Below are positions 13,071 to 30,847 of a stretch of DNA of 64,000 nt, piece by piece. The notes beneath the pieces were generated by a model. That model was given only the letters and a program-made list of their open reading frames with translations, had not been told where the DNA came from and ran no database searches. The stretch's first letter is position 1. Every line of letters begins with the position of its first letter. This DNA comes from an uncultured bacterium (GTDB taxonomy: Bacteria; Bacteroidota; Ignavibacteria; UBA10030; BY39), in NCBI GenBank assembly GCA_937967455.1, contig CALCJK010000009.1, positions 186,001 through 250,000 of the forward strand, in the 5' to 3' direction. Both the position numbers and the translations under genes were made by a program.

Positions 13071-13100
13071 AAGCCAGAGTTATATAACTCTGGCTTTTTT
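13071..13100 (+). terminator. strong intrinsic terminator
   Basis: AAGCCAGAGTTA pairs perfectly with TAACTCTGGCTT across a two-base TA centre, followed by a run of T. It ends the tetraheme cytochrome transcript and insulates the sigma-54 operon downstream. Confidence 0.9.
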
Positions 13101-13213
13101 GTTGTTAAATTCAACAGTAGATGTAGTAAAATACAACATAATTAACTTATTATATAGGGTTCAATTAAAAGAATTTCAACGCTTCTTTTAATATAGTTGT
13201 AGATATATTCAAC
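13101..13213 (+). promoter_or_regulatory. candidate upstream activator sites of the NtrC-type regulator
   Basis: Several partly palindromic elements built from GTTGTA/TACAAC or GTTG/CAAC half-sites lie 110-225 bases upstream of the sigma-54 promoter: GTTG-N7-CAAC at 13101-13115, TGTAGTAAAATACAACA at 13122-13138 and GTTGTAGATATATTCAAC at 13196-13213. The spacing suits enhancer binding by an NtrC-family activator. The region also lies in a 338-base gap without a gene. This is inference from symmetry alone. Confidence 0.35.
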
Positions 13214-13324
13214 ATTTTATTGTTGCTTTTATATGCATTTTTATTTGCTTGAAGAAGTATTCTTCTAATTCCTCTAATTTCAATAAATTATAGCCTCTAT
13301 TTTCCTTTAAAAAATTATCTTTTC

Positions 13325-13340
13325 TGGCATGGAAAATGCA
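13325..13340 (+). promoter_or_regulatory. sigma-54 (RpoN) promoter
   Basis: TGGCATGGAAAATGCA matches the TGGCACG-N4-TTGCW consensus at all but two conserved positions and has the invariant GG-N10-GC spacing (GG 13326-13327, GC 13338-13339). It lies 47 bases upstream of the GcvH-like gene. An NtrC-family sigma-54 activator is encoded 5 kb downstream, directly after this operon. Confidence 0.75.
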
Positions 13341-13386: not shown

Positions 13387-14091
13387 ATGACTGCAATATT
13401 AGTAATTATAACCGTGATTTTCTTCATCACAATAGATTATCTGGTTTACAGGAAAAAAGGAACTGCCTTAGTACAGATAGCTCGTGATACGGTTGAAAAT
13501 CAAAGCACCCAAATTTCTAAGCCTAGTATTATCAGTGAAGAAGATATAAGCTTACCTAATGGAGTATTTTTACATCCAAAACATACCTGGGCATATGTGC
13601 TAAAATCTGGGCATGTTAAAATTGGAATTGATTCTTTTATCTCAAAAATAGTCAGCGGAATTGATAAAATTGTACTACCACCAATTGGAACGGAAATTAA
13701 AAAGGGTCAGCCTATACTCAATCTTTTTTCTAAGGAGAGAAGTTTAAAATTGATTTCTCCTATAGATGGAAAGGTGGTATCTGTTAATGAAGCATTGATG
13801 TCAAATCCAGAGCTTCTAAATGATCCGTATAATGCTGGTTGGTCCGTTATAATTCAGCCATCTAATTTAGCTAAAGATATATCTTTGATGAAAATTTCAG
13901 AGGAAGCTATTAAAATTCTGAAAAATGAATTTAAACGTTTCAAAGAGTTTGTTATTAATTATGGCAATGGAAATAAATTGGGACTTCAAACATTGCAAGA
14001 TGGTGGTGTTCCAGTAACAGGAATTTTAACTGCTTTAGATAAAAGTAAGTGGGATTTGTTCCAAAAAGAATTTCTTAATCTTGAGCTATAA
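13387..14091 (+). CDS. membrane-anchored GcvH-like lipoyl protein
   Basis: The 234-residue product has an N-terminal membrane helix (about residues 3-20), a linker, then a textbook GcvH domain from about residue 58: HPKHTWAY, VKIGIDSF, LPPIGTEIKKGQ, and SLKLISPIDGKV with Lys121 at the lipoylation position, ending NDPYNAGW. A helical tail of about 70 residues is extra to GcvH. Glycine cleavage genes P and T are absent nearby. Instead it heads an operon with HybA-like and HybB/NrfD-like subunits under a sigma-54 promoter. TAGGAG precedes the start. The likely role is a lipoyl or dithiol carrier at the membrane rather than glycine decarboxylation; this is inference. Confidence 0.75.
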   Translation: MTAILVIITVIFFITIDYLVYRKKGTALVQIARDTVENQSTQISKPSIISEEDISLPNGVFLHPKHTWAYVLKSGHVKIGIDSFISKIVSGIDKIVLPPIGTEIKKGQPILNLFSKERSLKLISPIDGKVVSVNEALMSNPELLNDPYNAGWSVIIQPSNLAKDISLMKISEEAIKILKNEFKRFKEFVINYGNGNKLGLQTLQDGGVPVTGILTALDKSKWDLFQKEFLNLEL

Positions 14092-14105: not shown

Positions 14106-14870
14106 ATGGGAAAAAAAGCCATATTAATAGATATTACTAAGTGTGTCGGATGTCAGCAGTGTGCAATAGCATGTAAAGAAGAGAATAATTTACCAGATAT
14201 AGAAGAAACAAAATTATCTGCAACAGCATACACGGTTGTCGAAGAAAGGGGCGATCATTATGTAAGACGTTTATGTATGCATTGTAATGAACCTACATGT
14301 GTTTCAGTTTGTCCTGTAGGTGCTTTTGATAAAACCCCAGAAGGGGCGATTATTTATAATGAAAATAAATGCATAGGATGTAGATATTGTATGATGGCAT
14401 GCCCATTCCAGGTACCTAGATATGAATGGAATAGTACAACTCCAAGAGTTCAAAAATGTAGAATGTGCATAGAAAGAATCCAAACTGGTGATATACCTGC
14501 GTGTGTTCAGGCTTGTGAAACAGGTGCAAGCCAATTTGGAGATTATTATCAGATGTTACAGCAGGCACATCAAGCAATTAAAAATGAACCGGATAAGTAT
14601 GTGAATCATATTTATGGTGAAAAAGAAGTTGGAGGAACTTCTGTTTTATATATTTCTGATGTTCCATTCGAAAAGTTGGGATTTAAAACAAATCTTGGAA
14701 CAATGCCATTACCTGATTTAACATGGGAAGCCCTTTCTAAAATTCCATCTGTTGTACTTGTAGGTGGAACACTGTTGTATGGTATATGGTGGATTACAAA
14801 TCGTAGAAAAGAAGTTGCAGAATTCGAACGCAAAATAAAAGAACAAGAAAAAGAAAGTAAGGAAGATTAA
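14106..14870 (+). CDS. HybA/PsrB-like four-cluster ferredoxin subunit
   Basis: This 254-residue protein holds four [4Fe-4S] motifs: CVGCQQCAIACK, CMHCNEPTCVSVCP, CIGCRYCMMACP and CRMCIERIQTG with the later CVQACE. A single C-terminal transmembrane helix (about residues 217-234, VLVGGTLLYGIWW) anchors it, as in HybA. No Tat or Sec signal is visible at the N-terminus, so the side of the membrane on which it acts is unclear. AAGGAG precedes ATG 14106. It pairs with the next gene as the electron-transfer arm of a quinone oxidoreductase. No hydrogenase or molybdopterin catalytic subunit is encoded nearby; the GcvH-like protein or the tetraheme cytochrome may be the partner. Confidence 0.85.
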   Translation: MGKKAILIDITKCVGCQQCAIACKEENNLPDIEETKLSATAYTVVEERGDHYVRRLCMHCNEPTCVSVCPVGAFDKTPEGAIIYNENKCIGCRYCMMACPFQVPRYEWNSTTPRVQKCRMCIERIQTGDIPACVQACETGASQFGDYYQMLQQAHQAIKNEPDKYVNHIYGEKEVGGTSVLYISDVPFEKLGFKTNLGTMPLPDLTWEALSKIPSVVLVGGTLLYGIWWITNRRKEVAEFERKIKEQEKESKED

Positions 14871-14873
14871 CCT

Positions 14874-16058
14874 ATGAAAAATTCTTTCTTTGGTAAATTA
14901 ACATTTTGGAAAGTAACTGCAATTATAATTTTAATTATTGCAGCTTATGCAGTAATTGTAAGGTTTACATATGGACTTGGTGCAGTTACTAATTTAAAAG
15001 ATGAGTTCCCATGGGGCTTATGGATTGGTTTTGATATATTATGCGGTGTGGGTTTGGCAGCTGGTGGTTTTACTCTTTGTGGAATTGTTTATATTTTTAA
15101 CATCAAAAGCTTTAAACCCATAGTAAGACCAGCTGTTTTGACAGCATTTTTAGGCTACTTGCTTGTAATTGCAGCTCTGCTTATAGATCTTGGTAGGCCT
15201 TATAGAATCTGGCATGCAATTATTATGTGGAATCCTAGATCAGTAATGTTTGAAGTTGCTTGGTGTGTAATGTTATACACGACTGTATTGGCATTAGAGT
15301 TTAGCCCTGCAGTTCTTGAAAAATTAAGATGGAAATTTCCTCTAAAAATTATAAAATCCATAACTATACCTCTAGTAATTCTTGGTGTATTGCTTTCTAC
15401 GCTGCATCAATCCTCCCTCGGATCAGTTTATTTGATAGTACCGAGTAAATTATATGCGTTCTGGTATTCACCACTTCTTCCAGTATTTTTCTTCCTTTCC
15501 GCACTTACTATTGGATTTGCAATGGTAATTATCGAGTCTTATTTAAGTTCGAGAGCATTTAACAGACAATTAGAATTGCCTCTATTAATTCGACTGGGTC
15601 AGGTGATGCCTGTTTTGCTACTGGTTCAATTAGTCATAAAAATAATTGATTTCGCTAATCGCGGGATATTTAATCTCTTGTTTATTCCAAGGACTGAAAC
15701 TTACTTGTTCTATTTTGAAATCTTACTGGCCATCATTATTCCGATGCTAATGCTGTTCAATAAAAAAATTAGACACAGTAGAGCAGGTTTATTCTATGCT
15801 TCTTTAATTGCAGTACTCGGATTTATTCTAAATCGTATGAATGTATCAATTACAGGAATGGAAGCTGGAAGTGGAACATCTTATACTCCTCATTGGATGG
15901 AATTCTTTATTACTCTTGGAATTGTCACATTAGGTTTCATCGCTTTCAGTTATGCTGTTAAATATTTAAATGTATTTGAGAAATCTTCCGAGCAAGTCGT
16001 TGCTGAATCTTCGGTGGTAAATCTAGCAAAACAATTGGGATTGCAGGTTGATAAATAA
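14874..16058 (+). CDS. HybB/NrfD-like integral membrane quinone subunit
   Basis: This 394-residue polytopic protein has about ten hydrophobic helices. The early segment PWGLWIGFDILCGVGLAAGG is the HybB signature. Family members (HybB, PsrC, NrfD, ActC) bind menaquinone and exchange electrons with a four-cluster ferredoxin subunit. It starts 3 nt after the HybA-like gene, so the two are a pair. Because no catalytic subunit is present, this resembles the FeS/NrfD pairs of cytochrome-linked menaquinol oxidoreductases described in Geobacter. That comparison is from recollection, not alignment. A GcvH-like gene follows immediately. Confidence 0.85.
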   Translation: MKNSFFGKLTFWKVTAIIILIIAAYAVIVRFTYGLGAVTNLKDEFPWGLWIGFDILCGVGLAAGGFTLCGIVYIFNIKSFKPIVRPAVLTAFLGYLLVIAALLIDLGRPYRIWHAIIMWNPRSVMFEVAWCVMLYTTVLALEFSPAVLEKLRWKFPLKIIKSITIPLVILGVLLSTLHQSSLGSVYLIVPSKLYAFWYSPLLPVFFFLSALTIGFAMVIIESYLSSRAFNRQLELPLLIRLGQVMPVLLLVQLVIKIIDFANRGIFNLLFIPRTETYLFYFEILLAIIIPMLMLFNKKIRHSRAGLFYASLIAVLGFILNRMNVSITGMEAGSGTSYTPHWMEFFITLGIVTLGFIAFSYAVKYLNVFEKSSEQVVAESSVVNLAKQLGLQVDK

Positions 16059-16071
16059 AAAAATAAATACT

Positions 16072-16695
16072 ATGGATATAACAAACATAAATAAAACTCA
16101 TGATGATTATACAAAAATTCTTAGCGAGATTTTAGATAAAATTTTTATGTTTGAATATGATAAAAACATTTATTATTCCAAGAATCATCTTTGCTTGCAG
16201 GAAACTGAAAAAAATGTTTTTATTGTTGGTTTTGATTCGTATATAACTAGTCTTCTCTCATTCATAAATACTCTTGTTCTAACTTCGTTGAATGAAAGAA
16301 TGTATGAAGGAAAGCCTTTTGGATGGATAATTCAAAATGGGAAAACTTTATCTATTTACTCACCTGTAAATGCTACAATATTAGAGCACAATAGAAAAAT
16401 AGTTGATGCGCCTGATAGTTTACGAAATAAAAAGTTCCCAGATAATTGGTTTATAAAGTTTAAATTTGATGATAAGGATAAAACATTAAAAAAACTAATG
16501 CATGGAAAGGAAGCTCAAATTTGGTATGAACGAACAGGTCAAAAGTTAAAAAATGATATTGTCAAAATATTGACGGAATCATCCCCTAAAGAGTTAGTTA
16601 CTCAATATGATGGTGGAAAATTAATATATTCAATATTTGAGATTTTACCCTCAAACGAACGTATTAGGATATTAAATTCATTATTTTCAAAATAA
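16072..16695 (+). CDS. GcvH-like protein lacking the lipoyl lysine
   Basis: From ATG 16072 the product has 207 residues; an in-frame TTG at 16048 would overlap the NrfD-like gene and add eight. It is a diverged version of the membrane GcvH-like protein four genes upstream. It keeps VGFDSYITSLL, GKPFGWIIQNG and YSPVNATI, but at the position of the lipoyl Lys (SLKLISP in the paralogue) it has Ser (TLSIYSP). It has no membrane helix or signal peptide. It probably cannot carry lipoate and may act as a structural or regulatory partner. A hairpin terminator follows. Confidence 0.65.
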   Translation: MDITNINKTHDDYTKILSEILDKIFMFEYDKNIYYSKNHLCLQETEKNVFIVGFDSYITSLLSFINTLVLTSLNERMYEGKPFGWIIQNGKTLSIYSPVNATILEHNRKIVDAPDSLRNKKFPDNWFIKFKFDDKDKTLKKLMHGKEAQIWYERTGQKLKNDIVKILTESSPKELVTQYDGGKLIYSIFEILPSNERIRILNSLFSK

Positions 16696-16729
16696 GTAGA
16701 AATTAAGTTTTAAAATTTGTTTATTGGTG

Positions 16730-16760
16730 AAAAATTCCACAAATTAGATGTGGAATTTTT
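16730..16760 (+). terminator. intrinsic terminator, bidirectional in form
   Basis: AAAAATTCCACA pairs perfectly with TGTGGAATTTTT around a seven-base loop. It closes the sigma-54 operon. The sensor kinase ATG lies only 12 bases after it and has no visible Shine-Dalgarno, so kinase transcription may start within or before this hairpin or depend on read-through. Confidence 0.75.
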
Positions 16761-16772
16761 CATTTATATTAT

Positions 16773-18377
16773 ATGAGAAAATTATTAAATACACTTTCTT
16801 TCAGGTTGTTTCTAACATTATCACTAGTTTTGATTTTAATATTGGGAGGATTTATATATTTTGCTTTAGATTTTCAAGAAAAACGCATGATGAATTGTAT
16901 CTTTATGAATGCTAATAGATTAAGTGATTTTATAAAAGGTTCGACAAGGTATGGTATGCTTCTGAACCGTCGTGAAGACACACATCAAATAATTAATAGG
17001 TTGGGACAGGAAAATGGAATCGAAGTTATTAGGGTATATAATAAAAAGGGTGAAATAATGTTCTCAAGTATTGAGGAAGAAATTGGTAAAACGGTTGATA
17101 TGACAGCGGAAGCATGTTATATATGTCATAGTGAATCAAAACCAATCGAATCTATACCTGAGAAAAATCGATCTCGAATCGTAATTCGACAAGATGGTCA
17201 CCGTTCATTAGGTTTAATAAATCCTATTAAAAATGAACTTGATTGTTCAAATGCTGACTGTCATGCACATCCACCTGATATAAAAATACTTGGTGTTCTG
17301 GATATAAAAATGTCTCTGGATAGTCTGGATAAGAATATTAAAGATGCAGAAAATCAGATTTTGTTATTTTCAATAGTTTTAATTGTCCTAATAAATTTAG
17401 TAACCGCAGTCTTTATTCGTAAATTTGTTCATAAACCTGTCCATTTATTAATTGAGGGCACAAATGCTATTGCTGCTGGGAATTTGAAGTATAAAATTCA
17501 ATTGAATTCAAAAACCGAAATTGGTGAACTAGCAAAGATGTTTAATACAATGACAGATCAATTGGAAAAAGCTTACAATGAAATCAAAGAATGGTCAATA
17601 ACTCTTGAAAATAAAGTGAATGAAAAGACCGATGAATTAAAACATGCGCAAGCACACTTGTTTCATATTGAAAAAATGGCATCTCTTGGACGACTGGCAG
17701 CCACTGTTGCTCATGAACTTAATAATCCATTAGAAGGGATCCTAACATTAACGAGACTCCAGATTAAGAGATTAAATAAGAATTCTCTGACCAGAGAAGA
17801 AGTGGAGGATATTTTAAAAGACTTGAATTTTATTGCTGAAGAAACACTACGTAGCGGAAATATAGTAAAAAATTTACTCCTTTTCTCCCGTCAACAACCA
17901 ACTGATTTTAAAGAAGCTGATATTGAACAGATTATAGAAAAATGTATAATGCTTATTCAACATCATTTGAAACTAAATAATATTAATTTGATTAAAGATT
18001 ATCAAATAAAGGATAAAAATGTTCTTTGTAATGATCAACAGTTACAACAAGCTTTTCTTGCTTTGATGATAAATTCAGTTGAAGCAATGCAAAATGGTGG
18101 TGAACTGAAAATCTCGTTATTAGAACCTAATTCGGATGAAATCGAGATTCATTTTTCAGATACAGGACAGGGAATCCCTGATGAAATAAGAGATAAAATA
18201 TTTGAACCCTTCTTCTCAACAAAATCTAATGGTAAAGGAATTGGATTGGGACTTTCAGTAGTTTATGGTATTATTAATAACCATAAAGGTAAAATTAGCT
18301 TTTATTCTAAAATAGGTCAGGGGACGACATTCAAAATAAAACTTTCAAGAAAGTTAAATAGATTAAAAAATAATTAG
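16773..18377 (+). CDS. sensor histidine kinase with periplasmic heme c motif
   Basis: The 534-residue kinase has a transmembrane helix at about 10-31, a periplasmic domain, a second helix at about 190-212, HAMP, a coiled coil, a HisKA domain with the phospho-acceptor His314 (VAHELNNP), and a HATPase domain (MINSVEAMQNGG, SDTGQGIPD, GIGLGLSVVYG). The periplasmic domain holds CYICH at residues 115-119 and CSNADCH at 158-164. The first is a standard heme c motif, the second a CX4CH variant. It is therefore likely to sense redox state or a gas through covalent heme. It is followed after 9 nt by an NtrC-type regulator, its evident partner. Confidence 0.85.
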   Translation: MRKLLNTLSFRLFLTLSLVLILILGGFIYFALDFQEKRMMNCIFMNANRLSDFIKGSTRYGMLLNRREDTHQIINRLGQENGIEVIRVYNKKGEIMFSSIEEEIGKTVDMTAEACYICHSESKPIESIPEKNRSRIVIRQDGHRSLGLINPIKNELDCSNADCHAHPPDIKILGVLDIKMSLDSLDKNIKDAENQILLFSIVLIVLINLVTAVFIRKFVHKPVHLLIEGTNAIAAGNLKYKIQLNSKTEIGELAKMFNTMTDQLEKAYNEIKEWSITLENKVNEKTDELKHAQAHLFHIEKMASLGRLAATVAHELNNPLEGILTLTRLQIKRLNKNSLTREEVEDILKDLNFIAEETLRSGNIVKNLLLFSRQQPTDFKEADIEQIIEKCIMLIQHHLKLNNINLIKDYQIKDKNVLCNDQQLQQAFLALMINSVEAMQNGGELKISLLEPNSDEIEIHFSDTGQGIPDEIRDKIFEPFFSTKSNGKGIGLGLSVVYGIINNHKGKISFYSKIGQGTTFKIKLSRKLNRLKNN

Positions 18378-18386
18378 AGGAAAATA

Positions 18387-19730
18387 ATGGATAATAAAAA
18401 CTTCGGCATTTTAATAGTTGATGATGAACCAATTGTAAGGGAATCGCTTTATAAGTGGTTTTTGGAAGATGGTTTCAGAGTTGAGACTGCAGAAAATGCT
18501 GCTGATGCATTGAAGAAACTTCAAAATTCTTCGTTCGATATTGCATTTGTAGATATAAGAATGCCGGGTATGGATGGACTTGAATTACAACGAAGAATTA
18601 AAGAAATTGATAAATCATTAGTTGTAATTATAATAACTGCTTTTGCTTCCGTTGAGTCTGCAGTTCGAGCTTTGAAGGAAGGTGCTTATGATTATGTTAC
18701 TAAGCCAATTGACCCTGATGAGCTAAGTCATATCATTTCTAATATAATAAACCAGAAGAAATTAATGTTGGAAAATATACAATTAAAGCAAAAGATAGAA
18801 GATCTGATTCAAGTAGAGGAAATTGTTGGTGAAAGTCCACAAATTAAAAAGGTATTTGAATTAATTCTAACAGTTGCCAAGACTGATACTACAGTGTTAA
18901 TTAGAGGAGAGAGTGGTACTGGAAAAGAACTCGTGGCGAAAGCTATACATGCAAATAGCAATAGAAAATATTTTCCTATAATCCCCGTTAATTGTGGTGC
19001 GTTAAATGACAATTTACTTGAAAGTGAGCTGTTCGGGCACGAACGTGGTGCTTTTACAGGTGCACAATATCGTCGAAAAGGTAAATTCGAAATGGCTGAT
19101 GGTGGAACAATATTTTTTGATGAAATTGGTAATGTGAGTGAAAAATTACAAGTGGATTTATTAAGAGTATTGGAAACAAAGCAATTTACAAGGCTCGGTG
19201 GCGATCAGCTCATCAATGTGGATGTAAGAATAATTTGTGCCACAAACCGTGATCTGGAACTGGCAGTTAAGGAAGGTAAGTTTAGAGAAGATTTATATTA
19301 TAGACTAAATGTGTTTACAATCTTTCTTCCACCTCTCCGAGAGAGAAAAAGTGATATACCCATATTGATAGAACATTTCATAAAAAAATATTCGCAAATA
19401 ATGAATAAACCAATTCTGAAAATAGAGCCTGATGCCCTTGATATTTTAATGAGATATGATTGGCCAGGTAATGTTCGCGAACTTGCTAATGCAATAGAAA
19501 GAGCAATGGTTATTGGAAAACCTCCAGCAATTAAGAAAGAAGATCTACCTTTTCAGCTTACTACAAATGGTTTCGATAGACCATTATCTGATTCGCTTGA
19601 AGAAATTGAGCGAGCCCATATATTAAAAATTCTTAACCAGTGTGAATGGAATATTACAAAATCTGCTGAAATCCTTGGTATTGATAGAGCAACACTATAT
19701 AACAAAATCAATAAGTATAAGTTGCGATAA
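18387..19730 (+). CDS. NtrC-family sigma-54 response regulator
   Basis: This 447-residue regulator has three parts. The receiver domain has VDDEP and phospho-acceptor Asp56 in VDIRMPG. The AAA+ domain has Walker A GESGTGKE, the sigma-54 contact loop GAFTGA, Walker B GGTIFFDEIG and the arginine-rich sensor region. A Fis-type helix-turn-helix at the C-terminus reads SAEILGIDRATLYNK. All parts for sigma-54 activation are intact. AGAGGAAAA precedes ATG 18387, and the gene follows its heme-type kinase. The sigma-54 promoter at 13325 makes the GcvH/HybAB-like operon the obvious local target; other targets elsewhere are possible. Confidence 0.92.
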   Translation: MDNKNFGILIVDDEPIVRESLYKWFLEDGFRVETAENAADALKKLQNSSFDIAFVDIRMPGMDGLELQRRIKEIDKSLVVIIITAFASVESAVRALKEGAYDYVTKPIDPDELSHIISNIINQKKLMLENIQLKQKIEDLIQVEEIVGESPQIKKVFELILTVAKTDTTVLIRGESGTGKELVAKAIHANSNRKYFPIIPVNCGALNDNLLESELFGHERGAFTGAQYRRKGKFEMADGGTIFFDEIGNVSEKLQVDLLRVLETKQFTRLGGDQLINVDVRIICATNRDLELAVKEGKFREDLYYRLNVFTIFLPPLRERKSDIPILIEHFIKKYSQIMNKPILKIEPDALDILMRYDWPGNVRELANAIERAMVIGKPPAIKKEDLPFQLTTNGFDRPLSDSLEEIERAHILKILNQCEWNITKSAEILGIDRATLYNKINKYKLR

Positions 19731-19733
19731 TAA

Positions 19734-20264
19734 ATGCATATTGAGATTCTTGGTGCCAGATATCATACCAGTATCAACATTGATAATCTTTGTAAAACTG
19801 TAAGTTCAATATTTAATCTGGAAGTAAAGTTCAAAAAAGTTGTACTGGATTTTGGTCTTGCTTTTGATACAAATAGATTACAGTATAATTCCACAAAACT
19901 TCTTGAACTTGCAATTAATAGTGGTACATTGAAAAATGATGGAAAATCTATTATACTAACAGATCTTGATTTGTATGTCCCAATTCTTACTTTTGTTTTC
20001 GGAGAAGCAGAACTAAATGGAAGAGCTGCTATTGCTTCTTCACATAGGTTGCATAATGAATATTATGGATTACCCCGGAATGATGAGCTTCTGCAGTTAC
20101 GGACTGAAAAAGAGGTAATTCATGAGTTAGGTCATACATTTGGTTTGATCCATTGTTCAGATAACTTTTGTGTTATGCATTCATCAAGCTATGTTGAAGA
20201 TATCGACTTAAAAAATTTAGAATTTTGTATGGAATGTGAAAAAATGTTTTTAAATCGCCTCTAA
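19734..20264 (+). CDS. archaemetzincin-type zinc metalloprotease
   Basis: The 176-residue protein has the archaemetzincin signature: HELGHTFGLIHC, then CVMHSS with the Met-turn, and CMECEK. This is the HEXXHXXGXXH zinc site combined with four cysteines that bind a second zinc. No signal peptide is present, so it is cytoplasmic. The start lies 3 nt after the response regulator stop, so it belongs to the two-component operon. The natural substrates of this family are largely unknown. Its linkage here to heme sensing may be functional or accidental. Confidence 0.85.
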   Translation: MHIEILGARYHTSINIDNLCKTVSSIFNLEVKFKKVVLDFGLAFDTNRLQYNSTKLLELAINSGTLKNDGKSIILTDLDLYVPILTFVFGEAELNGRAAIASSHRLHNEYYGLPRNDELLQLRTEKEVIHELGHTFGLIHCSDNFCVMHSSSYVEDIDLKNLEFCMECEKMFLNRL

Positions 20265-20328: not shown

Positions 20329-21819
20329 ATGGCAAAAAAGTTTCCCGACACTTTTTATAATCCTTTAAGTATAATTGGCACAGTTTTATCTATTATTTTA
20401 TTTATTTCAATTATATTTCTAGTATTAATTGGTATTTTAGTACCTGAAACGCCAGTTTATTTTGGTATTATAACATACATTGTCCTACCAATCTTACTTA
20501 TCTTGAGTTTGTTGCTCATAATTATTGGAATATTGAGAGAAAGGAAAAGGCTTTTAAAGGGTGGAGAGATAAAACATTTCATAAGTATAGATTTTGATAA
20601 TCCAAAACACAGAAGAGGTGCAATTACATTTGTGATAGTTACGGTTGTGTTTATGCTATTAAGTGCATTTGGTAGTTATCAAGCTTTTCAATATTCTGAA
20701 TCAGTAGAATTTTGCGGGAAGTTGTGTCATGAAGTAATGGAACCAGAATATACTGCATATCAGACTTCTCCACATGCAAGGGTTCGTTGTGCAGAATGTC
20801 ATATAGGTGAAGGAGCAGATTGGTTTGTCAAATCTAAACTTTCAGGTGCTTATCAGGTTTACTCCGTTTTATTTAACAAGTATTCTCGTCCTATTCCTAC
20901 ACCAATAAAAAATTTGCGTCCTGCACAGGAGACTTGTGAACGATGCCACTGGCCTCAATATTTTTTTAGCGAAAAGAAAGTCCAAAAAACATATTATAAA
21001 AAAGATGAAAAAAATACACCATGGACAATTTCATTACTTATGAAGATTGGTGGTGGTTCACCTGAACTCGGACCCACAGCCGGCATTCATTGGCATATGA
21101 ATATAAACCAATACATTGAATATATAGCAAAAGATAAAATGCGCCAGGAGATAATTTATGTTAAAACTACAGATCGTTCCGGAAATATTACAGAATATAT
21201 TTCACAAGATGAACCTCTGACTCGTGAACAAATAGATTCCTTACAGAAATTTAAAGTAGATTGTATTGATTGTCATAATCGTCCTTCACATATCTATTAT
21301 CCACCAACTTCCTCAATAGATCTTGCTATTTATTTAAGAAGAATAGATCCAACCTTACCTTATATAAAGAAAATCGCGGTCGAAGCATTATCTTATAATT
21401 ATTCTAGCAAAGAAAAGGCACTTGATAGTATAAGATATATAATCCAGAACTTTTATGGCAATGAATACAAAGAGTTATTAACATCTGAGTTTGAACGTGT
21501 TAATAATGCTGTTTTAGAAGTTCAAAAGTTATACTCGCGCAATTTCTTTCCAAATATGAATGTAAGTTGGAGAGCTTATCCAATAAATTCTTCGCATTTA
21601 AATAATTCAGGTTGCTTTAGGTGTCATAACGATAAGTTGGTTAGTCCATTTGGACAAAAAATTACAAAAAATTGTAATAGTTGCCATACTATTTTATATC
21701 AAGGACCAGAGTTAAACCCCAAAACTCTAACAACAACAGGTTTGGATTTTATCCATCCCGAAGATATCGGTGAAGAATGGAAAACAACAAATTGTAATGA
21801 GTGTCATACAGGTTTATGA
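20329..21819 (+). CDS. NapC/NirT-like membrane multiheme cytochrome c
   Basis: The 496-residue protein has three N-terminal membrane helices (about residues 10-40, 42-66 and 88-112). A large periplasmic part follows with six CXXCH motifs (CAECHIG, CERCHWP, CIDCHNR, CFRCHND, CNSCH, CNECH) and a first motif of CX3CH form (FCGKLCHEVMEPE). NapC/NirT proteins take electrons from menaquinol and pass them to periplasmic partners. It heads an operon with Rieske, cytochrome b and further multiheme cytochromes, so it is probably part of an unusual bc-type inner-membrane complex. No clear Shine-Dalgarno is seen before ATG 20329. Confidence 0.85.
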   Translation: MAKKFPDTFYNPLSIIGTVLSIILFISIIFLVLIGILVPETPVYFGIITYIVLPILLILSLLLIIIGILRERKRLLKGGEIKHFISIDFDNPKHRRGAITFVIVTVVFMLLSAFGSYQAFQYSESVEFCGKLCHEVMEPEYTAYQTSPHARVRCAECHIGEGADWFVKSKLSGAYQVYSVLFNKYSRPIPTPIKNLRPAQETCERCHWPQYFFSEKKVQKTYYKKDEKNTPWTISLLMKIGGGSPELGPTAGIHWHMNINQYIEYIAKDKMRQEIIYVKTTDRSGNITEYISQDEPLTREQIDSLQKFKVDCIDCHNRPSHIYYPPTSSIDLAIYLRRIDPTLPYIKKIAVEALSYNYSSKEKALDSIRYIIQNFYGNEYKELLTSEFERVNNAVLEVQKLYSRNFFPNMNVSWRAYPINSSHLNNSGCFRCHNDKLVSPFGQKITKNCNSCHTILYQGPELNPKTLTTTGLDFIHPEDIGEEWKTTNCNECHTGL

Positions 21820-21865
21820 TATTTAATTTAAAATAATTATTTTTGAAAGATATTGGAGATTTTAA

Positions 21866-22294
21866 ATGAATCAAGGTCGACGTTCTTTCTTAATATACAC
21901 AATTGGTGGCTCCTTAATTTCGTTATTGATAGCAATTTTTTATCCAATTTTAGCATTTCTTAAACCACCAAAGAATAAATCAATAGAAGTTTCCTCCGTA
22001 AAGGTTGGTAAATTAGAAGATATCCCTCCAGATTCAAGTTTGAATTTCAGATTTGGAAATTCATCTGCCATTTTAATAAGGACTTCTTCAGGTGAACTGA
22101 AAGCCTTTGATGCTAGATGTACACACCTTGATTGTACAGTACAATACAGAAAAGATATGGGAATTATATGGTGTGCCTGCCATAACGGTAAATATGATAT
22201 TAATGGCAGGAATATTGCAGGTCCACCACCACGACCTTTGAATTCATATAAAGTTGTCGTACAAAATGATGAAGTTTATGTTTCAAAAATATAG
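21866..22294 (+). CDS. Rieske [2Fe-2S] protein of a bc-type complex
   Basis: This 142-residue protein starts with GRRSFLIYTIGG, a twin-arginine-like signal anchor, followed by a membrane helix and a Rieske domain. Cluster motifs are CTHLDC and CACHNGKYD, giving the Cys-X-His and Cys-X2-His ligand pairs plus the disulfide cysteines. The Pro loop is GPPPRPL. It should oxidise menaquinol together with the adjacent cytochrome b and hand electrons to the multiheme cytochromes. The spacing to cytochrome b is 12 nt. It is compact like other bacterial menaquinol Rieske proteins. Confidence 0.92.
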   Translation: MNQGRRSFLIYTIGGSLISLLIAIFYPILAFLKPPKNKSIEVSSVKVGKLEDIPPDSSLNFRFGNSSAILIRTSSGELKAFDARCTHLDCTVQYRKDMGIIWCACHNGKYDINGRNIAGPPPRPLNSYKVVVQNDEVYVSKI

Positions 22295-22306
22295 TAATTA
22301 CCTATT

Positions 22307-23383
22307 ATGAGAAATAAGGTTATTAGAGATATTTATAGATGGTTTGATGAGAGATTGAATTTACAAGATTTAATACAATTGGCAAATAAAAAGTATGTTC
22401 CTATTCATAGACATTCAATTTGGTATTACTTCGGTGGTGTAACTCTTTTCCTATTTATCATTCAAGTTGCTACTGGTATACTATTATTAATGTATTACAA
22501 GGGTAGCGAGGATTTAGCATTTGAGAGTATTCGGTATATTATGACTGAAGTTGAATTTGGTTGGTTAATTCGTTCAGTTCACAGCTGGTCTGCAAACTTA
22601 ATGATATTTTGTGCGTTTATTCATATGTTTAGTGTTTTTTTTACTAAAGCTTATCGTAAACCACGTGAAATTACTTGGATCACTGGAATGATCTTATTAT
22701 TTATTGCACTTGGTTTTGGATTTAGTGGGTATTTGTTACCTTGGAATGAACTTGCATTCTTTGCTACAAAGGTAGGAACCGATATTGTTGGTGTATTTCC
22801 AATAATTGGGAAACCATTACAACTATTTCTACGTGGTGGCGAAGATGTAACTGGAACTACACTCTCACGATTTTTTGGATTCCATGTAGCAATACTTCCT
22901 GCAATTTTTATTGTTTTTCTAATCTTTCATTTAATACTTATTCAGAGACAGGGAATGAGTCTGCCAATGAATATTGATCAGTCAAAAGAATTTAAGACAA
23001 TGCCGTTCTTCCCCAACTTTTTGCTTAGAGATTTGTTACTGTGGTTAATTGTTCTAAACATCTTAGCAATCCTGGCTGTATTATTTCCCTGGGAATTAGG
23101 ATCAAAAGCAGATCCTTTTGCTCCAGCACCAGCTGGTATTAAGCCAGAATGGTATTTTATGTTCATGTTTCAAACTCTTAAATACATCCCAGCTAAAATC
23201 TGGATTATAGATGGTGAGGTAGTTGGAATTATGTTATTTACTATTGGAGCTATTTTATGGACAACTATTCCTTTTTGGGATAGAAAGACAGAAAGAGGAC
23301 AGAAAAATTTATTAATTAATTATTTAGGACTCTTCTGCATTATTTATATTATATTGCTCACAATTTTGGGATATTTATCATGA
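22307..23383 (+). CDS. cytochrome b (b6-type core with subunit IV-like part)
   Basis: The 358-residue integral membrane protein has [25 protein letters not shown] with the heme-ligand His, [12 protein letters not shown] with a second His pair, and the quinol-oxidation motif PEWY within [12 protein letters not shown]. The length covers the four-helix cytochrome b core plus about three further helices. It overlaps the next cytochrome gene by 4 nt. With the Rieske protein it forms the quinol-oxidising core; there is no ordinary cytochrome c1, whose place is presumably taken by the NapC-like and 11-heme proteins. Confidence 0.92.
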
Positions 23384-24822
23384 TTAATTGGAAGAATGTT
23401 CTTTTTAAAATTATAATTTTGTTTTTTTCACTATTGCTTATTGGAAGAATGGAAAAATCCTATTCCCAAAAAAAAATTGACTATTGTTTTAGTTGTCATA
23501 GAGCAAATAACGATGAAAGTGCATTTCTGTTTTCTAAAGATGTCCATTTTGAAATGGAATTGTCATGCGCTGACTGCCATGGTGGTGATCCTACCCAGAA
23601 GGATATGGGCGACGCTATGAGCACCGAAAATAATTTTATTGGTGTTCCAGTTGGAAACAAGGTTTCTGAATTATGCAGTAACTGTCATATCGGTGAATAC
23701 AGTGCTCTTTATAATAGTGTGCATGCAAAATATTCTATCAAAGGTGAGGAATGGATTGTTCAATGTACAACCTGTCATGGAATCCATAATATTACGCGCG
23801 TGAAAAATCGAATTTCACCAGTTAATCCATTTAATATCTCAAAAATATGTGCAAAATGTCATTCTAATATTTCTTACATCAGGAAATACAATCCTGAACT
23901 TCCAACAGATCAATACGAGAAATACTTAACAAGTAAACACGGTTTACTTAATTCTAAAAATGACCCTAAAGCAGCTACTTGTGTTAGTTGTCATGATAAT
24001 CATCAAATTTTAAGTAAGAAAGATCCTAGATCAAGTGTTTATTTTACAAACTTACCAAAAACTTGTTCATATTGTCATAGTAATCAAGAATATATGAGTG
24101 AGTATAAAATACCTACTGATCAATATGAAAAATATATTAAAAGTGTGCATGGAATTGCAACAACTGAAAAAGGTGATAATGCAGCTCCTTCTTGTAATGA
24201 TTGTCATGGTAATCACGGTGCAATACCACCAGGTATCGAATCCATCTCAAAGGTTTGTGGAATGTGTCATGCTATAAATGCTGAGCTATTTGCCGGGAGC
24301 CCTCATAAGAAAGCTTTCGACTCAATGAAATTACCAGAATGTGAAACCTGTCATAGCAACCACGATATTATAGCTGCTACTGACCAATTGATTGGTATAT
24401 CAAGTACTAGTATATGTATCAAGTGTCATTCAAATGAGAAATTACCTGAAGGTTATAAAACAGCAAAAAAAATGAGAGAGCTATTGGATAGTATAGTCGC
24501 GCTTGAAAGCACAATTACAAAATTAGTATCGGATGCTGAACAAAAAGGTATGGAAGTCTCAAAAGCAAAGTTCAAATTGAGAGACATCAGGCAAATAAAA
24601 TTAGAGATTAAAACAGTAATTCATGCATTTGATTTGTCTATTTTTGAAAAAAAAACGACCGAGATTTTTAATTTAATAAATGAAGTTAAATCACAAGGAG
24701 AATATGCGATTGAAGAATATTATTTTAGAAGATGGGGTCTGTTAGGATTTACTTTAATTATTATAATTTTAGCAGTTTCGCTATTTTTATATATAAAAAA
24801 GCTTGAAAATAAATCTGAATAG
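23380..24822 (+). CDS. undecaheme cytochrome c, membrane-anchored at the C-terminus
   Basis: The 480-residue protein has an N-terminal signal segment, eleven CXXCH motifs (CFSCH, CADCH, CSNCH, CTTCH, CAKCH, CVSCH, CSYCH, CNDCH, CGMCH, CETCH, CIKCH) and a helical stretch without hemes. It ends with a transmembrane helix ([18 protein letters not shown]). An internal repeat is visible as [14 protein letters not shown] and [14 protein letters not shown], suggesting duplication of a heme module. It overlaps cytochrome b by 4 nt, so it is very likely the periplasmic electron-accepting subunit of that complex. Anchoring in the inner membrane fits this role. Confidence 0.87.
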
Positions 24823-24895
24823 TCATTATTTTGGAATATTAAGAAATTTTTTTTAAATTTCGGCTAAATTCGATTAAAAGTATAAGGTGCCTGTT

Positions 24896-26179
24896 ATGAA
24901 AAAAGTTCTACTATTATTTTTTTGCGTAATTTTTGGTGGGATTAGTTATACACAAATTATAAATGGGAGATTCTCAACTTCTTTTTATTCTTTTGAACAG
25001 TTTGATACAATAGGTATCTCAAATTCATATTGGAGAGCGTTTCAAACTTTTCAGTTTGATGTAACAAAGGATCGATATTCTTTTCACACTTTAATTCAAG
25101 GTAACACTAATATTTCGGGTGAAGTAAATGAAGTTAGTAGTTTAAAATTTTATAATATGTATTTGAAGATCAAGAAGATTTTTAATATAGCTGATATTAA
25201 TTTTGGCAGACAATATATTTTTGGTGGGATATCTAATGGTTTGATTGATGGTGCTACATTAAGATTATCTTTCTATAATAATAGATTAATTCTAAAAACA
25301 TTTGCCGGCAGCATAGTTAACAAGGATTTAAAACCTGAACTTACAAAAAATATAAAAAATAATTATCTGCTTGGATTTCATTTTTTAGGAAATCCTATTC
25401 AAGATTTGAATTTAAGTATTAGTTATTTAGATCGCCATAGAGATAGGCTACAATACAAAGCGAATAGACCTGATTCTTTGGGTTATCTTTATGAGAAACT
25501 AATATCTTATCAATCGGGGGCTGAAAAATTCTTTAGCACGGATGTAGATTATAATTTCTTAAACTATGGCCAAATATATGCTCGATACGATTACGATTTA
25601 AATTTGGAGAAAACATCAAGAATACAATTTGGCACAAAAATTTATGTAACAAACAACATTGCTTTTAATGGCGAATATATAAAACGTACTCCACGCTTGT
25701 ATTTTAATTCAATATTTTATGTTTTTCAATCCAGTAATAATGAAGAAATAGAAGGTGGTGTTGAATATTCATACTTGCCTAATCTAAAATTTTATGCAAA
25801 GTTGGCAAATGTTAAATATTCTGGGGATAAAGCCAATCGATATACATTTGGTATGAGCACTGATTATGGTAGCTTATTCTATGCAAAAAGTGATGGTTAT
25901 GCAGGTGAATTATCAAGTGTTTCAGCTCAGATATTTTATCCATTGCTTAATAGAAAAATTATTCCATCAATTTCAGTGTCTCGCTCATCATATAAATTAT
26001 CAGATAAGTCCGAAAGGTATGAAAGCTTCGCCAGTGTTTTTGGTGTTGCTGTTAACTTGATAAATTCTATATCGGTTGATGTTCAACTTCATTGGTTAAA
26101 TAACAAAGTTTATAAAGATGATTTAAGATTTTTACTTAAAGCGAACTATTTCTTTTCTCAAAAGTTAAATATTTTATAG
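24896..26179 (+). CDS. outer-membrane beta-barrel protein, porin-like
   Basis: From ATG 24896 (AAGGTG seven bases before) the protein has 427 residues. It has a clear signal peptide ending near SYTQI, then alternating polar/hydrophobic strands rich in Tyr, Phe and Asn throughout, typical of an outer-membrane barrel. It has no plug, no TonB box and no heme motif. It lies between an 11-heme gene and a 14-heme gene, the arrangement expected of a porin-cytochrome conduit in which a barrel sheathes a multiheme cytochrome. Sequence similarity to known conduit porins cannot be judged by eye. Confidence 0.7.
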   Translation: MKKVLLLFFCVIFGGISYTQIINGRFSTSFYSFEQFDTIGISNSYWRAFQTFQFDVTKDRYSFHTLIQGNTNISGEVNEVSSLKFYNMYLKIKKIFNIADINFGRQYIFGGISNGLIDGATLRLSFYNNRLILKTFAGSIVNKDLKPELTKNIKNNYLLGFHFLGNPIQDLNLSISYLDRHRDRLQYKANRPDSLGYLYEKLISYQSGAEKFFSTDVDYNFLNYGQIYARYDYDLNLEKTSRIQFGTKIYVTNNIAFNGEYIKRTPRLYFNSIFYVFQSSNNEEIEGGVEYSYLPNLKFYAKLANVKYSGDKANRYTFGMSTDYGSLFYAKSDGYAGELSSVSAQIFYPLLNRKIIPSISVSRSSYKLSDKSERYESFASVFGVAVNLINSISVDVQLHWLNNKVYKDDLRFLLKANYFFSQKLNIL

Positions 26180-26191
26180 GGGTTGAAAATT

Positions 26192-27394
26192 ATGAATAAA
26201 ATAAAAACTAATTTGATAATTCTATCTGTATTGATTGTTATTGCTGGAATCTCAATGTCCCAATTTTCAGGTAATTATTGGAAGGGAGAGGATAGATCAA
26301 GCAAAATTAAATTTTCTCATAAATTTCACTTGGAACAGAGTATTGCATGCATCGATTGCCATACAGATGCTACAGGTAGTACAAGTTCTAATGATAAATT
26401 GCTTGGAGATCATAATTCATGTTCAAGTTGTCATCAGGAACAAATCGATTCTGATTGTGAATTTTGCCACATTAAAAAAGATGAATATGAAGGATTTATA
26501 AACCCAATTCGTGAAATTATTTTTTCACACAAGCAACATCTTGAACTAGATGATGTAAATTGTGAAACCTGTCATAGAAATTTACAAGAAGTGGAATATG
26601 CTGAAGAACGTAATATGCCAAAAATGGCTGATTGTAATCAATGCCATAATGATACCAAAGCCAGCAGCATATGCGAAAATTGCCATACTAATTTTGCAAC
26701 ATTAATTCCTTCCGATCATTTGAGCTCAGCTTTTATGAAAGATCATAAAAGAATGGTTAGGGTTGGTGCAATGGAAACTAATTGTTCTACCTGTCATGAT
26801 GAATCTTTCTGTCAGCAATGTCATGATGGATCAAGTTTAATCAGATTTGGTAAGAGTGGTTTAATGAGCGATTTTTCTCCAAAAGCGACAAGAAGAGATT
26901 CTCCACGAGAACTGAGATTGAATTTTGTACATGATTTGAATTATAGATTTACTCACTCAATTGATGCAAAATCTAAGCAAAGTGATTGTTATTCCTGCCA
27001 TAATCGAGAAACATTTTGTTCGGAATGTCACAAAGCTGGTGGAAATATAACTCAGACTAACTTTAGGCCAACATGGCACAATGAACCAAATTTCAAAACT
27101 TTTGGGGTAGGCTCAGGTGGTGGAACACATGCGATACTGGCAAAACGTGATATTGAGTCATGTGCTTCCTGCCACGATGCAGATGGTGCTGATCCAACTT
27201 GTATTCAATGCCACATCGACAATGATGGAATAAAGGGTACTAATCCAAAAACACATAAATCAGGCTATATGAGAGGTGAGAAAGGAATCTGGCACGAGAC
27301 AAATTCAGCTGTTTGTTATCTTTGCCACACAAATGCAAATGCCAATAAAGACGGCAGTAAGAGTGGGCCATTCTGTAATTATTGTCACATATAA
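26192..27394 (+). CDS. tetradecaheme cytochrome c, exported
   Basis: The 400-residue protein has a Sec signal peptide ending near MSQFS and fourteen CXXCH motifs, the first CIDCH and the last CNYCH three residues before the C-terminus. Motifs such as FSHKFHLEQ and FSHKQHLEL supply distal His ligands, as in c7/c3-type modules. I choose ATG 26192, with AGGGG upstream, over TTG 26183. No lipobox or membrane anchor is seen. It directly follows the barrel gene and precedes a lipoprotein cytochrome, so it may be the heme wire inserted in the barrel or its periplasmic feeder. Confidence 0.85.
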   Translation: MNKIKTNLIILSVLIVIAGISMSQFSGNYWKGEDRSSKIKFSHKFHLEQSIACIDCHTDATGSTSSNDKLLGDHNSCSSCHQEQIDSDCEFCHIKKDEYEGFINPIREIIFSHKQHLELDDVNCETCHRNLQEVEYAEERNMPKMADCNQCHNDTKASSICENCHTNFATLIPSDHLSSAFMKDHKRMVRVGAMETNCSTCHDESFCQQCHDGSSLIRFGKSGLMSDFSPKATRRDSPRELRLNFVHDLNYRFTHSIDAKSKQSDCYSCHNRETFCSECHKAGGNITQTNFRPTWHNEPNFKTFGVGSGGGTHAILAKRDIESCASCHDADGADPTCIQCHIDNDGIKGTNPKTHKSGYMRGEKGIWHETNSAVCYLCHTNANANKDGSKSGPFCNYCHI

Positions 27395-27406
27395 GGAGAA
27401 AATAGT

Positions 27407-28480
27407 ATGCAAATTTATAAATTAATACCAGTTTTTATAATAATGTCTATTTTTTTGGGTTGTTCTAAATTACAAAAAGAACTACCTCAACCCACATCGC
27501 CAGGAACTGTGCATAATGCAGCTTGGAATGATACTGCCTCAGCGGATTTCCATGGAAAGTATTTAAAAGCAAAAAATTGGAAGAAAGACGATTGTGTTCA
27601 ATGCCACGCTGTAGATTTTAGTGGTGGAACCAGTCGAATATCTTGTTATGATTGTCATAATTCGTACCCTCATAAAAAAGGCTGGATACAATCAGATAAT
27701 GTATTTTTTCATGGTGTATTTTTGAAAAATAATAATTGGGATTTAATGTCCTGCAAAATATGCCATGGAATTGGTTATGACGGTGGTAGCATTACAAATG
27801 TTAGTTGTATGACTTCTGGTTGTCATTTAGATGAAAATCAGAATAAAAAATCACCTGAGGCGTGCAATACCTGTCATGGTAACTTTAGCTCACCAGAAAA
27901 TTTAGTTGTTTCTTGGGCACCTCCTCGTGGTATTGATGGAAGCACAGATTCAACTCATAGAAGTGTTGGTGCTCATCAGGTTCATATAGCTACAGGTAAA
28001 TTAGGCAAAAATTTGAAATGTGGTGAATGTCATAATGTTCCAGCTAATGTTTTTACTAATGGACACATTGATAGTGATCTACCAGCTGAAGTAGTTATGA
28101 ATGATACACTCTCTAGATTAATAACTGCAAACGGGACCCTTATACCAAATCCATCTTTCAATAATTCTGATTTAAAATGTTCAAATACATACTGTCATGG
28201 AAATTGGAAATTGAGAAAAGCAGCATCAACTAATCAATTTGGATATGCTGATTCTATTATGGTGGGGGCTAATTTTTCACCAAAGTGGGTAGGAGGAGCT
28301 GTAGAAGCAGCATGTGGTACTTGTCATGCTTTACCACCTACTGGTCATATTGCCTCAAGTATTAATGCTTGTGCAAATTGCCATTCTGGTGTTGTTAATA
28401 ATGCTGGAGTAATTATTGATAAATCTAAACATATAAATGGAAAAATAAATGTCTTTGGACAAGAAAAATGGATGAATTAA
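27407..28480 (+). CDS. multiheme lipoprotein cytochrome c of the CXXXXCH/CXXCH type
   Basis: The 357-residue protein starts with a lipoprotein signal whose lipobox is FLGCS (Cys at about residue 20). It has seven CXXCH motifs (CVQCH, CYDCH, CKICH, CNTCH, CGECH, CGTCH, CANCH) and two CX4CH motifs (CMTSGCH, CSNTYCH). The mix is characteristic of a family known from Geobacter-like metal reducers. As a lipoprotein at the end of a cytochrome/barrel operon it is a good candidate for a cell-surface terminal reductase or electron outlet. AAGGAG precedes the ATG. Orientation in the outer membrane is not shown by sequence. Confidence 0.82.
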   Translation: MQIYKLIPVFIIMSIFLGCSKLQKELPQPTSPGTVHNAAWNDTASADFHGKYLKAKNWKKDDCVQCHAVDFSGGTSRISCYDCHNSYPHKKGWIQSDNVFFHGVFLKNNNWDLMSCKICHGIGYDGGSITNVSCMTSGCHLDENQNKKSPEACNTCHGNFSSPENLVVSWAPPRGIDGSTDSTHRSVGAHQVHIATGKLGKNLKCGECHNVPANVFTNGHIDSDLPAEVVMNDTLSRLITANGTLIPNPSFNNSDLKCSNTYCHGNWKLRKAASTNQFGYADSIMVGANFSPKWVGGAVEAACGTCHALPPTGHIASSINACANCHSGVVNNAGVIIDKSKHINGKINVFGQEKWMN

Positions 28481-28495
28481 AATAGGAAAAACGAA

Positions 28496-29344
28496 ATGTA
28501 TAAAATTGTAAACAAGCAACAATTATCTGATATCATTACAAAATTCGTAATCGAAGCACCACTCATTGCAAAGAAAAGAAAAGCTGGGAATTTTGTAATA
28601 ATCAGAGTCAATGAAAACGGTGAACGAATTCCAATTACAATTGCTGATGCAGATCCACAGAAAGGTACTGTAACAATAATTGTTCAAGCCGTTGGAAAAA
28701 CTACGAAGCTTCTTTGTTCTTTAAATGAAGGAGATTATATTCTCGACTTTGTTGGTCCTTTAGGAGAACCAACCCCAATTCAGAATTATGGTACTGTCGT
28801 ATGTATTGGTGGTGGTGTAGGAACGGCTGAAGTTTATCCTATTGCAAAAGCATTGAAAGGGGCTGGTAATGAGGTCATTGGAATAATTGGAGCAAGATCT
28901 AAAGATTTAATTATACTCGAAAACGAAATGCGTGAAATTTGTGATCAACTTTACATCACTACTGATGATGGTTCTTATGGTAGAAAAGGTTTTGTTTCAG
29001 ACCAACTTCGTGATTTAATTGAAAGTGGAATTAAAATAGATGGTGTATATGCAATCGGACCAATCCCGATGATGAAAGTTTGTGCAGAGGTTACACGACC
29101 ATATAAGATAAAAACTTATGTTAGTCTTAATCCAATTATGGTGGATGGAACGGGAATGTGCGGTGGATGTAGGGTCACTGTAGGCGGAAAAATGAAATTT
29201 GCTTGTGTCGATGGACCAGAGTTTGATGCACACGAAGTAGATTTTGATGAACTCATAATGAGAAATAGAACTTATATTGACCTGGAAAAAATATCAGATC
29301 AGTTGTATGAAAATCATGTATGTAAATTAGCAGGTGTAAAGTAA
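28496..29344 (+). CDS. nfnA: NADH-dependent ferredoxin:NADP+ oxidoreductase small subunit (NfnA/SudB-like)
   Basis: This 282-residue flavoprotein belongs to the ferredoxin-NADP reductase/dihydroorotate dehydrogenase electron-transfer family. It has an FAD-binding barrel, an NAD domain with VVCIGGGVGTAEVYP, and a [2Fe-2S] site around MCGGCRVTVGG and FACVDGPEFD. With the next gene it forms a heterodimer that in Thermotoga and Clostridium bifurcates electrons from NADPH to ferredoxin and NAD, or runs in reverse. The pair overlaps by a single base. Homologues have also been called sulfide dehydrogenase. Here it could supply NADPH or ferredoxin for isocitrate dehydrogenase and Kor. Confidence 0.82.
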   Translation: MYKIVNKQQLSDIITKFVIEAPLIAKKRKAGNFVIIRVNENGERIPITIADADPQKGTVTIIVQAVGKTTKLLCSLNEGDYILDFVGPLGEPTPIQNYGTVVCIGGGVGTAEVYPIAKALKGAGNEVIGIIGARSKDLIILENEMREICDQLYITTDDGSYGRKGFVSDQLRDLIESGIKIDGVYAIGPIPMMKVCAEVTRPYKIKTYVSLNPIMVDGTGMCGGCRVTVGGKMKFACVDGPEFDAHEVDFDELIMRNRTYIDLEKISDQLYENHVCKLAGVK

Positions 29345-30795: not shown

Positions 30796-30818
30796 CTGAT
30801 AAAAATGCTTATCTTTTA

Positions 30819-30847
30819 AAGCCGATTTCATATAAATCGGCTTTTTT
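30819..30847 (+). terminator. strong intrinsic terminator
   Basis: AAGCCGATTT pairs with AAATCGGCTT around a short loop and runs into six T. It closes the unit that ends with the NfnB-like gene. Confidence 0.88.

Follow-up and report, generated by a model that had tools for sequence, protein, structure and literature searches.

A predicted two-heme Cache histidine kinase and its putative sigma-54 circuit in an HmcB/NrfD operon of an uncultured Ignavibacteria member

Gene content of the kinase locus

We analyzed a 64,000-nucleotide stretch of DNA (the window) from an uncultured member of the Ignavibacteria whose nearest named genome is Ignavibacteriae bacterium BY39. All window features described below lie on the forward (+) strand. 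The gene at 16773..18377 encodes a sensor histidine kinase of 534 amino acids, arranged as a first membrane helix (TM1), a periplasmic Cache domain with two predicted heme-c motifs, a second membrane helix (TM2), HAMP, HisKA and HATPase_c. The kinase part is complete, with HAMP (residues 214-265), HisKA (305-375) and HATPase_c (421-525) all scoring above their Pfam cut-offs. Hydropathy peaks placed the membrane segments at approximately residues 8-30 and 195-215, and the loop of about 165 residues between them holds both motifs; the positions of basic residues, N-terminal and following TM2, put this loop on the periplasmic side. The hydropathy profile thus bore out the first-pass annotation, which had located the motifs between two membrane helices and whose coordinates for the reading frame and both motifs were exact.

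The genes upstream of the kinase encode a GcvH-like protein with an N-terminal hydrophobic segment (13387..14091, PF01597), an HmcB/HybA-like 4Fe-4S protein (14106..14870), an NrfD/HmcC-like quinone-linked membrane protein (14874..16058; PF03916, with similarity to NF045714 below the NCBIfam cut-off) and a second GcvH-like protein (16048..16695, PF01597). The two GcvH-like proteins flank the HmcB and NrfD genes. On inspection by eye, neither shows a lipoyl-lysine where one would normally be expected, and both may therefore lack lipoylation. The kinase gene is followed by an NtrC-type response regulator (18387..19730) with a receiver domain (D56), a sigma-54 AAA+ domain carrying GAFTGA and a Fis-type helix-turn-helix (HTH); from the sequence, this regulator is the likely partner of the kinase. 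Directly after it lies an M54 (archaemetzincin-like) peptidase gene (19734..20264), a position that is conserved in nearly all operons of the layout termed type A below.

Further downstream, NrfH-like, Rieske, cytochrome b, outer-membrane-like and multiheme cytochrome genes (20329..28480) are followed by an NfnAB-like pair of the flavin/NADPH oxidoreductase type, recognized by eye (28496..30795). The genes from 20329 to 30795 share one strand with short gaps, and the first strong terminator-like site (30818-30844) comes after the NfnAB-like pair. No separate sigma-54 promoter with palindrome was identified before 20329, and the cytochrome genes may be read through from the promoter of the kinase operon. 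A 16-bp hairpin with a T-rich tail (16726..16764), a possible partial terminator that follows the second GcvH-like gene and precedes the kinase gene, could limit such read-through and may lower expression of the kinase relative to the genes upstream of it.

Comparison with 24 other loci from Ignavibacteria and neighboring groups revealed the kinase beside HmcB-like and NrfD-like genes in 23, usually together with GcvH-like genes. Two layouts were recognized. Type A, found in the window, reads GcvH-HmcB-NrfD-GcvH-kinase (approximately 540 amino acids)-sigma-54 regulator-M54 peptidase, and type B reads HmcB-NrfD, further genes, kinase (approximately 630 amino acids)-short regulator-GcvH-cytochromes. 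In two genomes (L116 and L121), kinase operons of types A and B lie near each other and face apart. Kinases of approximately 760 residues from Desulfobacteraceae are without the HmcB/NrfD linkage. The sensor domain is present in 55 of 396 sampled genomes of the same phylum, and in a second phylum, that of a Desulfobacteraceae match, 97 of 297 genomes gave a sensor-domain match, some of these being distant relatives. In some second-phylum genomes a two-motif kinase lies together with a sigma-54 regulator (37% and 42% identity to the window proteins) near other cytochrome complexes. At L152 and L157, such a kinase and its sigma-54 regulator are joined by a two-motif HAMP protein, with multiheme cytochromes nearby; this HAMP protein recurs across the L152-L157 genomes that have the two-motif kinase, again near multiheme cytochrome genes, as a separate membrane protein of approximately 275-310 amino acids with the same predicted two-heme Cache domain and HAMP and no kinase part. 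The L157 locus presumably resembles that of the Geobacter sulfurreducens proteins GSU0591 and GSU0599, and we assume that the cbcBA/bccR region of the same species offers a further comparison. Homology of the window NrfH-like and cytochrome b proteins to the L157 cytochromes was considered and rejected.

The Cache sensor domain and its heme-c motifs

The sensor domain comprises residues 31-194 (16863..17354). The domain was modeled with AlphaFold2 (pLDDT 83.7, pTM 0.79), and a Foldseek comparison with known structures matched the model to Cache domains, the closest among the best 50 matches being the extracellular domains of WalK, DctB, KinD and CitA. By prediction, the sensor is therefore a Cache fold. 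A search of the PDB with the single window sensor sequence gave nothing useful. A profile built from 39 diverse members, the window protein included, reached two heme-c sensors of G. sulfurreducens, GSU0935 (3b42, E = 2.7e-12) and GSU0582 (3b47, E = 4.9e-10). Neither structure was among the best 50 Foldseek matches of the model, possibly owing to the helix-swapped dimers in those crystals. The window protein gave no match to PF11845 (Tll0287/sCache_heme) at E <= 1, and 6 of the 39 relatives matched it weakly. PF21563 scored 18.9 bits on the window domain against a cut-off of 27, a threshold of the model and not a biological feature, and was matched by 30 of the 39 relatives at E <= 0.01.

The two motifs differ in their spacing. 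Site 1 is CYICH (residues 115-119, 17115..17129), and site 2 is CSNADCH (residues 158-164, 17244..17264), a non-canonical C-X4-C-H that extends with an invariant extra histidine to C-X4-C-H-x-H. In the profile alignment the structurally proven heme motif of GSU0935 and GSU0582, just before the last strand, falls on site 2 despite the wider spacing in the window protein, and the methionine of their N-terminal helix (Met60 in GSU0935) falls on Met62 (16956..16958), which we predict to be the distal ligand of the site 2 heme. The first-pass annotation had proposed a c-type heme sensor, and this part of it is well supported by the homology to crystallized heme-c sensors, the matching ligand methionine and the conservation of the motifs. 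It had also described the motifs as standing in place of an ordinary ligand-binding domain, which is wrong, since the predicted Cache fold of the sensor is the common ligand-binding fold, here with hemes added.

Motif conservation was examined in an alignment of 49 sensor domains, made up of the window domain and 48 others, two of the latter from one sister genome. C115, C118, H119, C158, C163, H164 and H166 were invariant in all 49, as were R135, P151, I152, N154, G174 and D177. This invariance excludes chance occurrence of the motifs. It is also the answer to the family search suggested in the first-pass annotation, which had named poor conservation of the Cys and His residues as the finding that would speak against its proposal; no such finding was made. 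Met62 was present in 48 of the 49 domains and in 109 of 110 members of the wider family, with or without site 1.

The wider family also separates the two sites. A C-Xn-CH is present at site 2 in all 110 members, and the full CXXCH at site 1 is found in 91 and absent from 19. That site 1 is kept or lost as a whole fits a separate second heme and speaks against a metal cluster shared by all four cysteines. A shared zinc or iron-sulfur site without heme would account for the joint invariance of four cysteines and three histidines in close homologues, but relatives with a single C-Xn-CH cannot build a four-cysteine site and site 2 aligns with a crystallographically proven heme c, which makes this explanation hardly credible. 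It is slightly easier to imagine, and still very improbable, that heme is bound at site 2 only, with the CXXCH of site 1 kept for a disulfide, a metal site or similar. Such an arrangement would agree with the crystallized Cache domains, which typically hold a single heme, and with the existence of a direct structural counterpart for site 2 only. Against it, H119 is invariant together with both cysteines, site 1 is lost as a unit in the members that do not have it, and both motifs appear as heme motifs in published lists. We therefore consider attachment of heme c very likely at site 2 and, with a little less assurance, likely at site 1 as well.

The same comparison bears on the ligands. His166 (17268..17270), a candidate second ligand, occurs in 87 of the 91 members with site 1 and in 2 of the 19 without it, as raw counts that ignore relatedness. 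Because H166 is tied to site 1 and Met62 is kept regardless, the pattern suggests His164/Met62 ligation of the site 2 heme, with H166 as the partner of site 1. Co-occurrence with cytochrome-c assembly proteins is uninformative, as PF01578 was found in 392 of 396 genomes regardless of whether the sensor was there.

Sigma-54 promoter, palindromes and predicted target operons

The region upstream of the operon contains a terminator-like hairpin (13071..13096), which separates the operon from an upstream cytochrome gene, and a predicted sigma-54 promoter of the -24/-12 type, CTGGCATGGAAAATGCA (13324..13340), whose first base lies 63 bp before the first gene. Matches to the plain sigma-54 consensus over the window numbered 44 compared with a mean of 34 by chance, only slightly above expectation, and the promoter call rests for this reason on position and conservation. 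The site has counterparts in other genera, and in L032, L114, L117, L123, L124 and L131 a comparable -24/-12 site precedes the first gene by 50-70 bp. Among control upstream regions, a -24/-12 site at p <= 0.02 was found in none of 26 for HmcB, none of 10 for cyt554 and 1 of 49 for the kinase. With RpoN encoded in the same genome, the sigma-54 two-component set is complete, comprising kinase, receiver Asp, GAFTGA-bearing AAA+ domain, HTH, RpoN and a -24/-12 promoter recognized by consensus and conservation.

Between the terminator and the promoter lie three enhancer-like palindromes of the form TGTWG-N7-CAACA, namely TGTTGTTAAATTCAACA (13100..13116), TGTAGTAAAATACAACA (13122..13138) and TGTAGATATATTCAACA (13198..13214), where 0.43 matches would be expected in the whole window. 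The pattern was derived from the window and a sister species and then scored against shuffles on 13 other type A operons. A palindrome at p <= 0.03 was found in 8 of the 13 (in L129 weakly), in a scoring that was not fully blind since the sequences had been previewed, and the remaining 5 had none at the tested place. Palindromes tend to lie about 200-225 and 110-126 bp upstream of recognizable promoters, and the consensus TGTTGAA-N3-TTCAACA together with a sigma-54 promoter recurs across families. This arrangement makes autoactivation of the kinase operon through sigma-54 likely, at a confidence below that for the two hemes.

We also searched the genome of origin for exact palindrome matches and found nine distinct places, three of them in the upstream region of the kinase operon. 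A single match means little by itself because the genome-wide count is no higher than that of a reversed control pattern. One match, at C3:92716, is followed 124 bp downstream by a weak -24/-12-like site (score 12.5 of 15.5); the genes beyond encode a hydrogenase-maturation protease and HdrC, HdrB and HdrA2-like proteins. In the sister species (L207), the orthologous genes are likewise preceded by a palindrome, and the same distance separates it from a promoter-like site that scores lower still (11.5 of 15.5). Conservation of this arrangement, which is similar to that of the kinase operon but weaker, in both species of the genus examined makes the Hdr operon a candidate, and on the sequence evidence a moderately likely, target of the regulator. 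In the gene group downstream of the C3 palindrome (L202 6944-12093, contig C3), the protease and Hdr genes, whose HdrA2-like product is short, are accompanied by genes for an anti-sigma-factor-like ATPase and an [FeFe]-hydrogenase-like protein.

These results qualify the earlier proposal that the kinase regulates genes within a cytochrome-rich region. The sigma-54 promoter with enhancer-like sites before the kinase operon, the cytochrome genes on the same strand and the lack of a strong terminator until 30818 agree with it, but the prediction points most clearly to the GcvH/HmcB/NrfD operon itself and the distant Hdr operon as targets.

Proposed signaling and comparison with known heme sensors

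From domain anatomy, motif conservation, homology, gene neighborhood and the promoter/enhancer pattern, all read from sequence, we infer a possible route from heme to promoter. The heme at site 2 (C158, C163, H164), most likely with His164 and Met62 as ligands, would act as the switch heme conserved throughout the family. Either a redox change at this heme or the binding of NO or CO would free the methionine of the N-terminal helix and change the signal that TM2 and HAMP relay to the kinase. The heme at site 1 (C115, C118, H119 and possibly H166) would be a further redox center, one that may adjust the potential or hand electrons to the switch heme. The kinase would then phosphorylate the adjacent NtrC-type regulator, which would bind the TGTTGAA-N3-TTCAACA sites and activate the sigma-54 promoters of the GcvH-HmcB-NrfD-kinase operon and of the Hdr/hydrogenase-maturation operon. 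Taken as a whole, a two-heme Cache kinase activating its own operon and the Hdr operon through a sigma-54 regulator is in our view probable on balance.

The nature of the signal was weighed against studied heme sensors. GSU0935 holds a single heme ligated by His144 and Met60, and both it and GSU0582 undergo a redox-linked change of heme spin and ligation, with redox potentials of -251 mV (GSU0935) and -156 mV (GSU0582); both also bind NO and CO with displacement of the methionine (PMC8396549). The best studied signaling member of the sCache_heme family, a HAMP-linked protein, binds NO, releases it slowly, does not retain O2 and behaves as an NO sensor (PMC12889525). By analogy, the window kinase might be a diheme sensor of NO (or CO), in which the gas would take the place of Met62 on the ferrous heme of site 2 and so switch the kinase. 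Its predicted targets, however, are electron-transfer operons, no NO-reductase or nitrosative-stress gene was recognized among the operon genes examined, and the extra heme suggests a redox role while not proving one; we regard a gas sensor as a serious contender that is nonetheless unlikely. Redox sensing is favored because of the predicted targets and the conserved methionine, and in our judgement the kinase rather probably responds to redox than to a gas. A more elaborate and distinctly doubtful possibility is that the sensor is wired to the NrfD/HmcB/GcvH module, so that electrons from the quinone pool would enter through the site 1 heme and the kinase would read the electron flux of its own complex, not a diffusible signal, and coordinate the module with the cytoplasmic Hdr operon.

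Such a circuit, read here as a redox-responsive one, touches on the open question of how cytochrome-rich anaerobes adjust their electron-transfer modules to whatever redox potential is available. The sensor family is common in both phyla, and its two-motif members have been little studied; our literature search, in which coverage of subscription journals was thin, found no functional study of them. The new element is the predicted circuit. It comprises two predicted hemes whose ligand residues are named, a regulator of the sigma-54 type, a DNA palindrome of defined sequence and two operons as predicted targets.

The two-motif kind is itself already in the literature, and the window kinase adds a further member. 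GSU0591 and GSU0599 (PMC8396549) and Adeh_2011 and Adeh_3383 (PMC3831638) are reported as signal-transduction or sensor proteins that carry either two c-heme motifs of the CX2-4CH signature or an additional heme motif. Likened by their descriptions, these four proteins likely belong to the same family as the window kinase; GSU0591 and GSU0599 share with it two CX2-4CH-type motifs in a signaling protein, and GSU0599 is annotated as a two-component protein. The sCache_heme family (DUF3365, Tll0287, PF11845) likewise combines a Cache domain with covalent heme c and includes membrane signaling members (PMC12889525); it is described with one CXXCH, whereas the window protein has two motifs and falls outside PF11845. 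DcrA of Desulfovibrio vulgaris, as summarized in the account that cites it (PMC8396549), is also a periplasmic c-heme sensor, reported for oxygen or redox potential; on that description it is a chemotaxis transducer with a c-type heme. Also among the close parallels are GSU0935 and GSU0582, which share with the window protein a periplasmic Cache/PAS-like fold between two membrane helices, a heme motif where site 2 lies and the methionine of the N-terminal helix. The Geobacter proteins are chemoreceptors with one heme at a canonical CXXCH, whereas the window protein has two motifs, C-X4-C-H-x-H at site 2 and a histidine kinase output.
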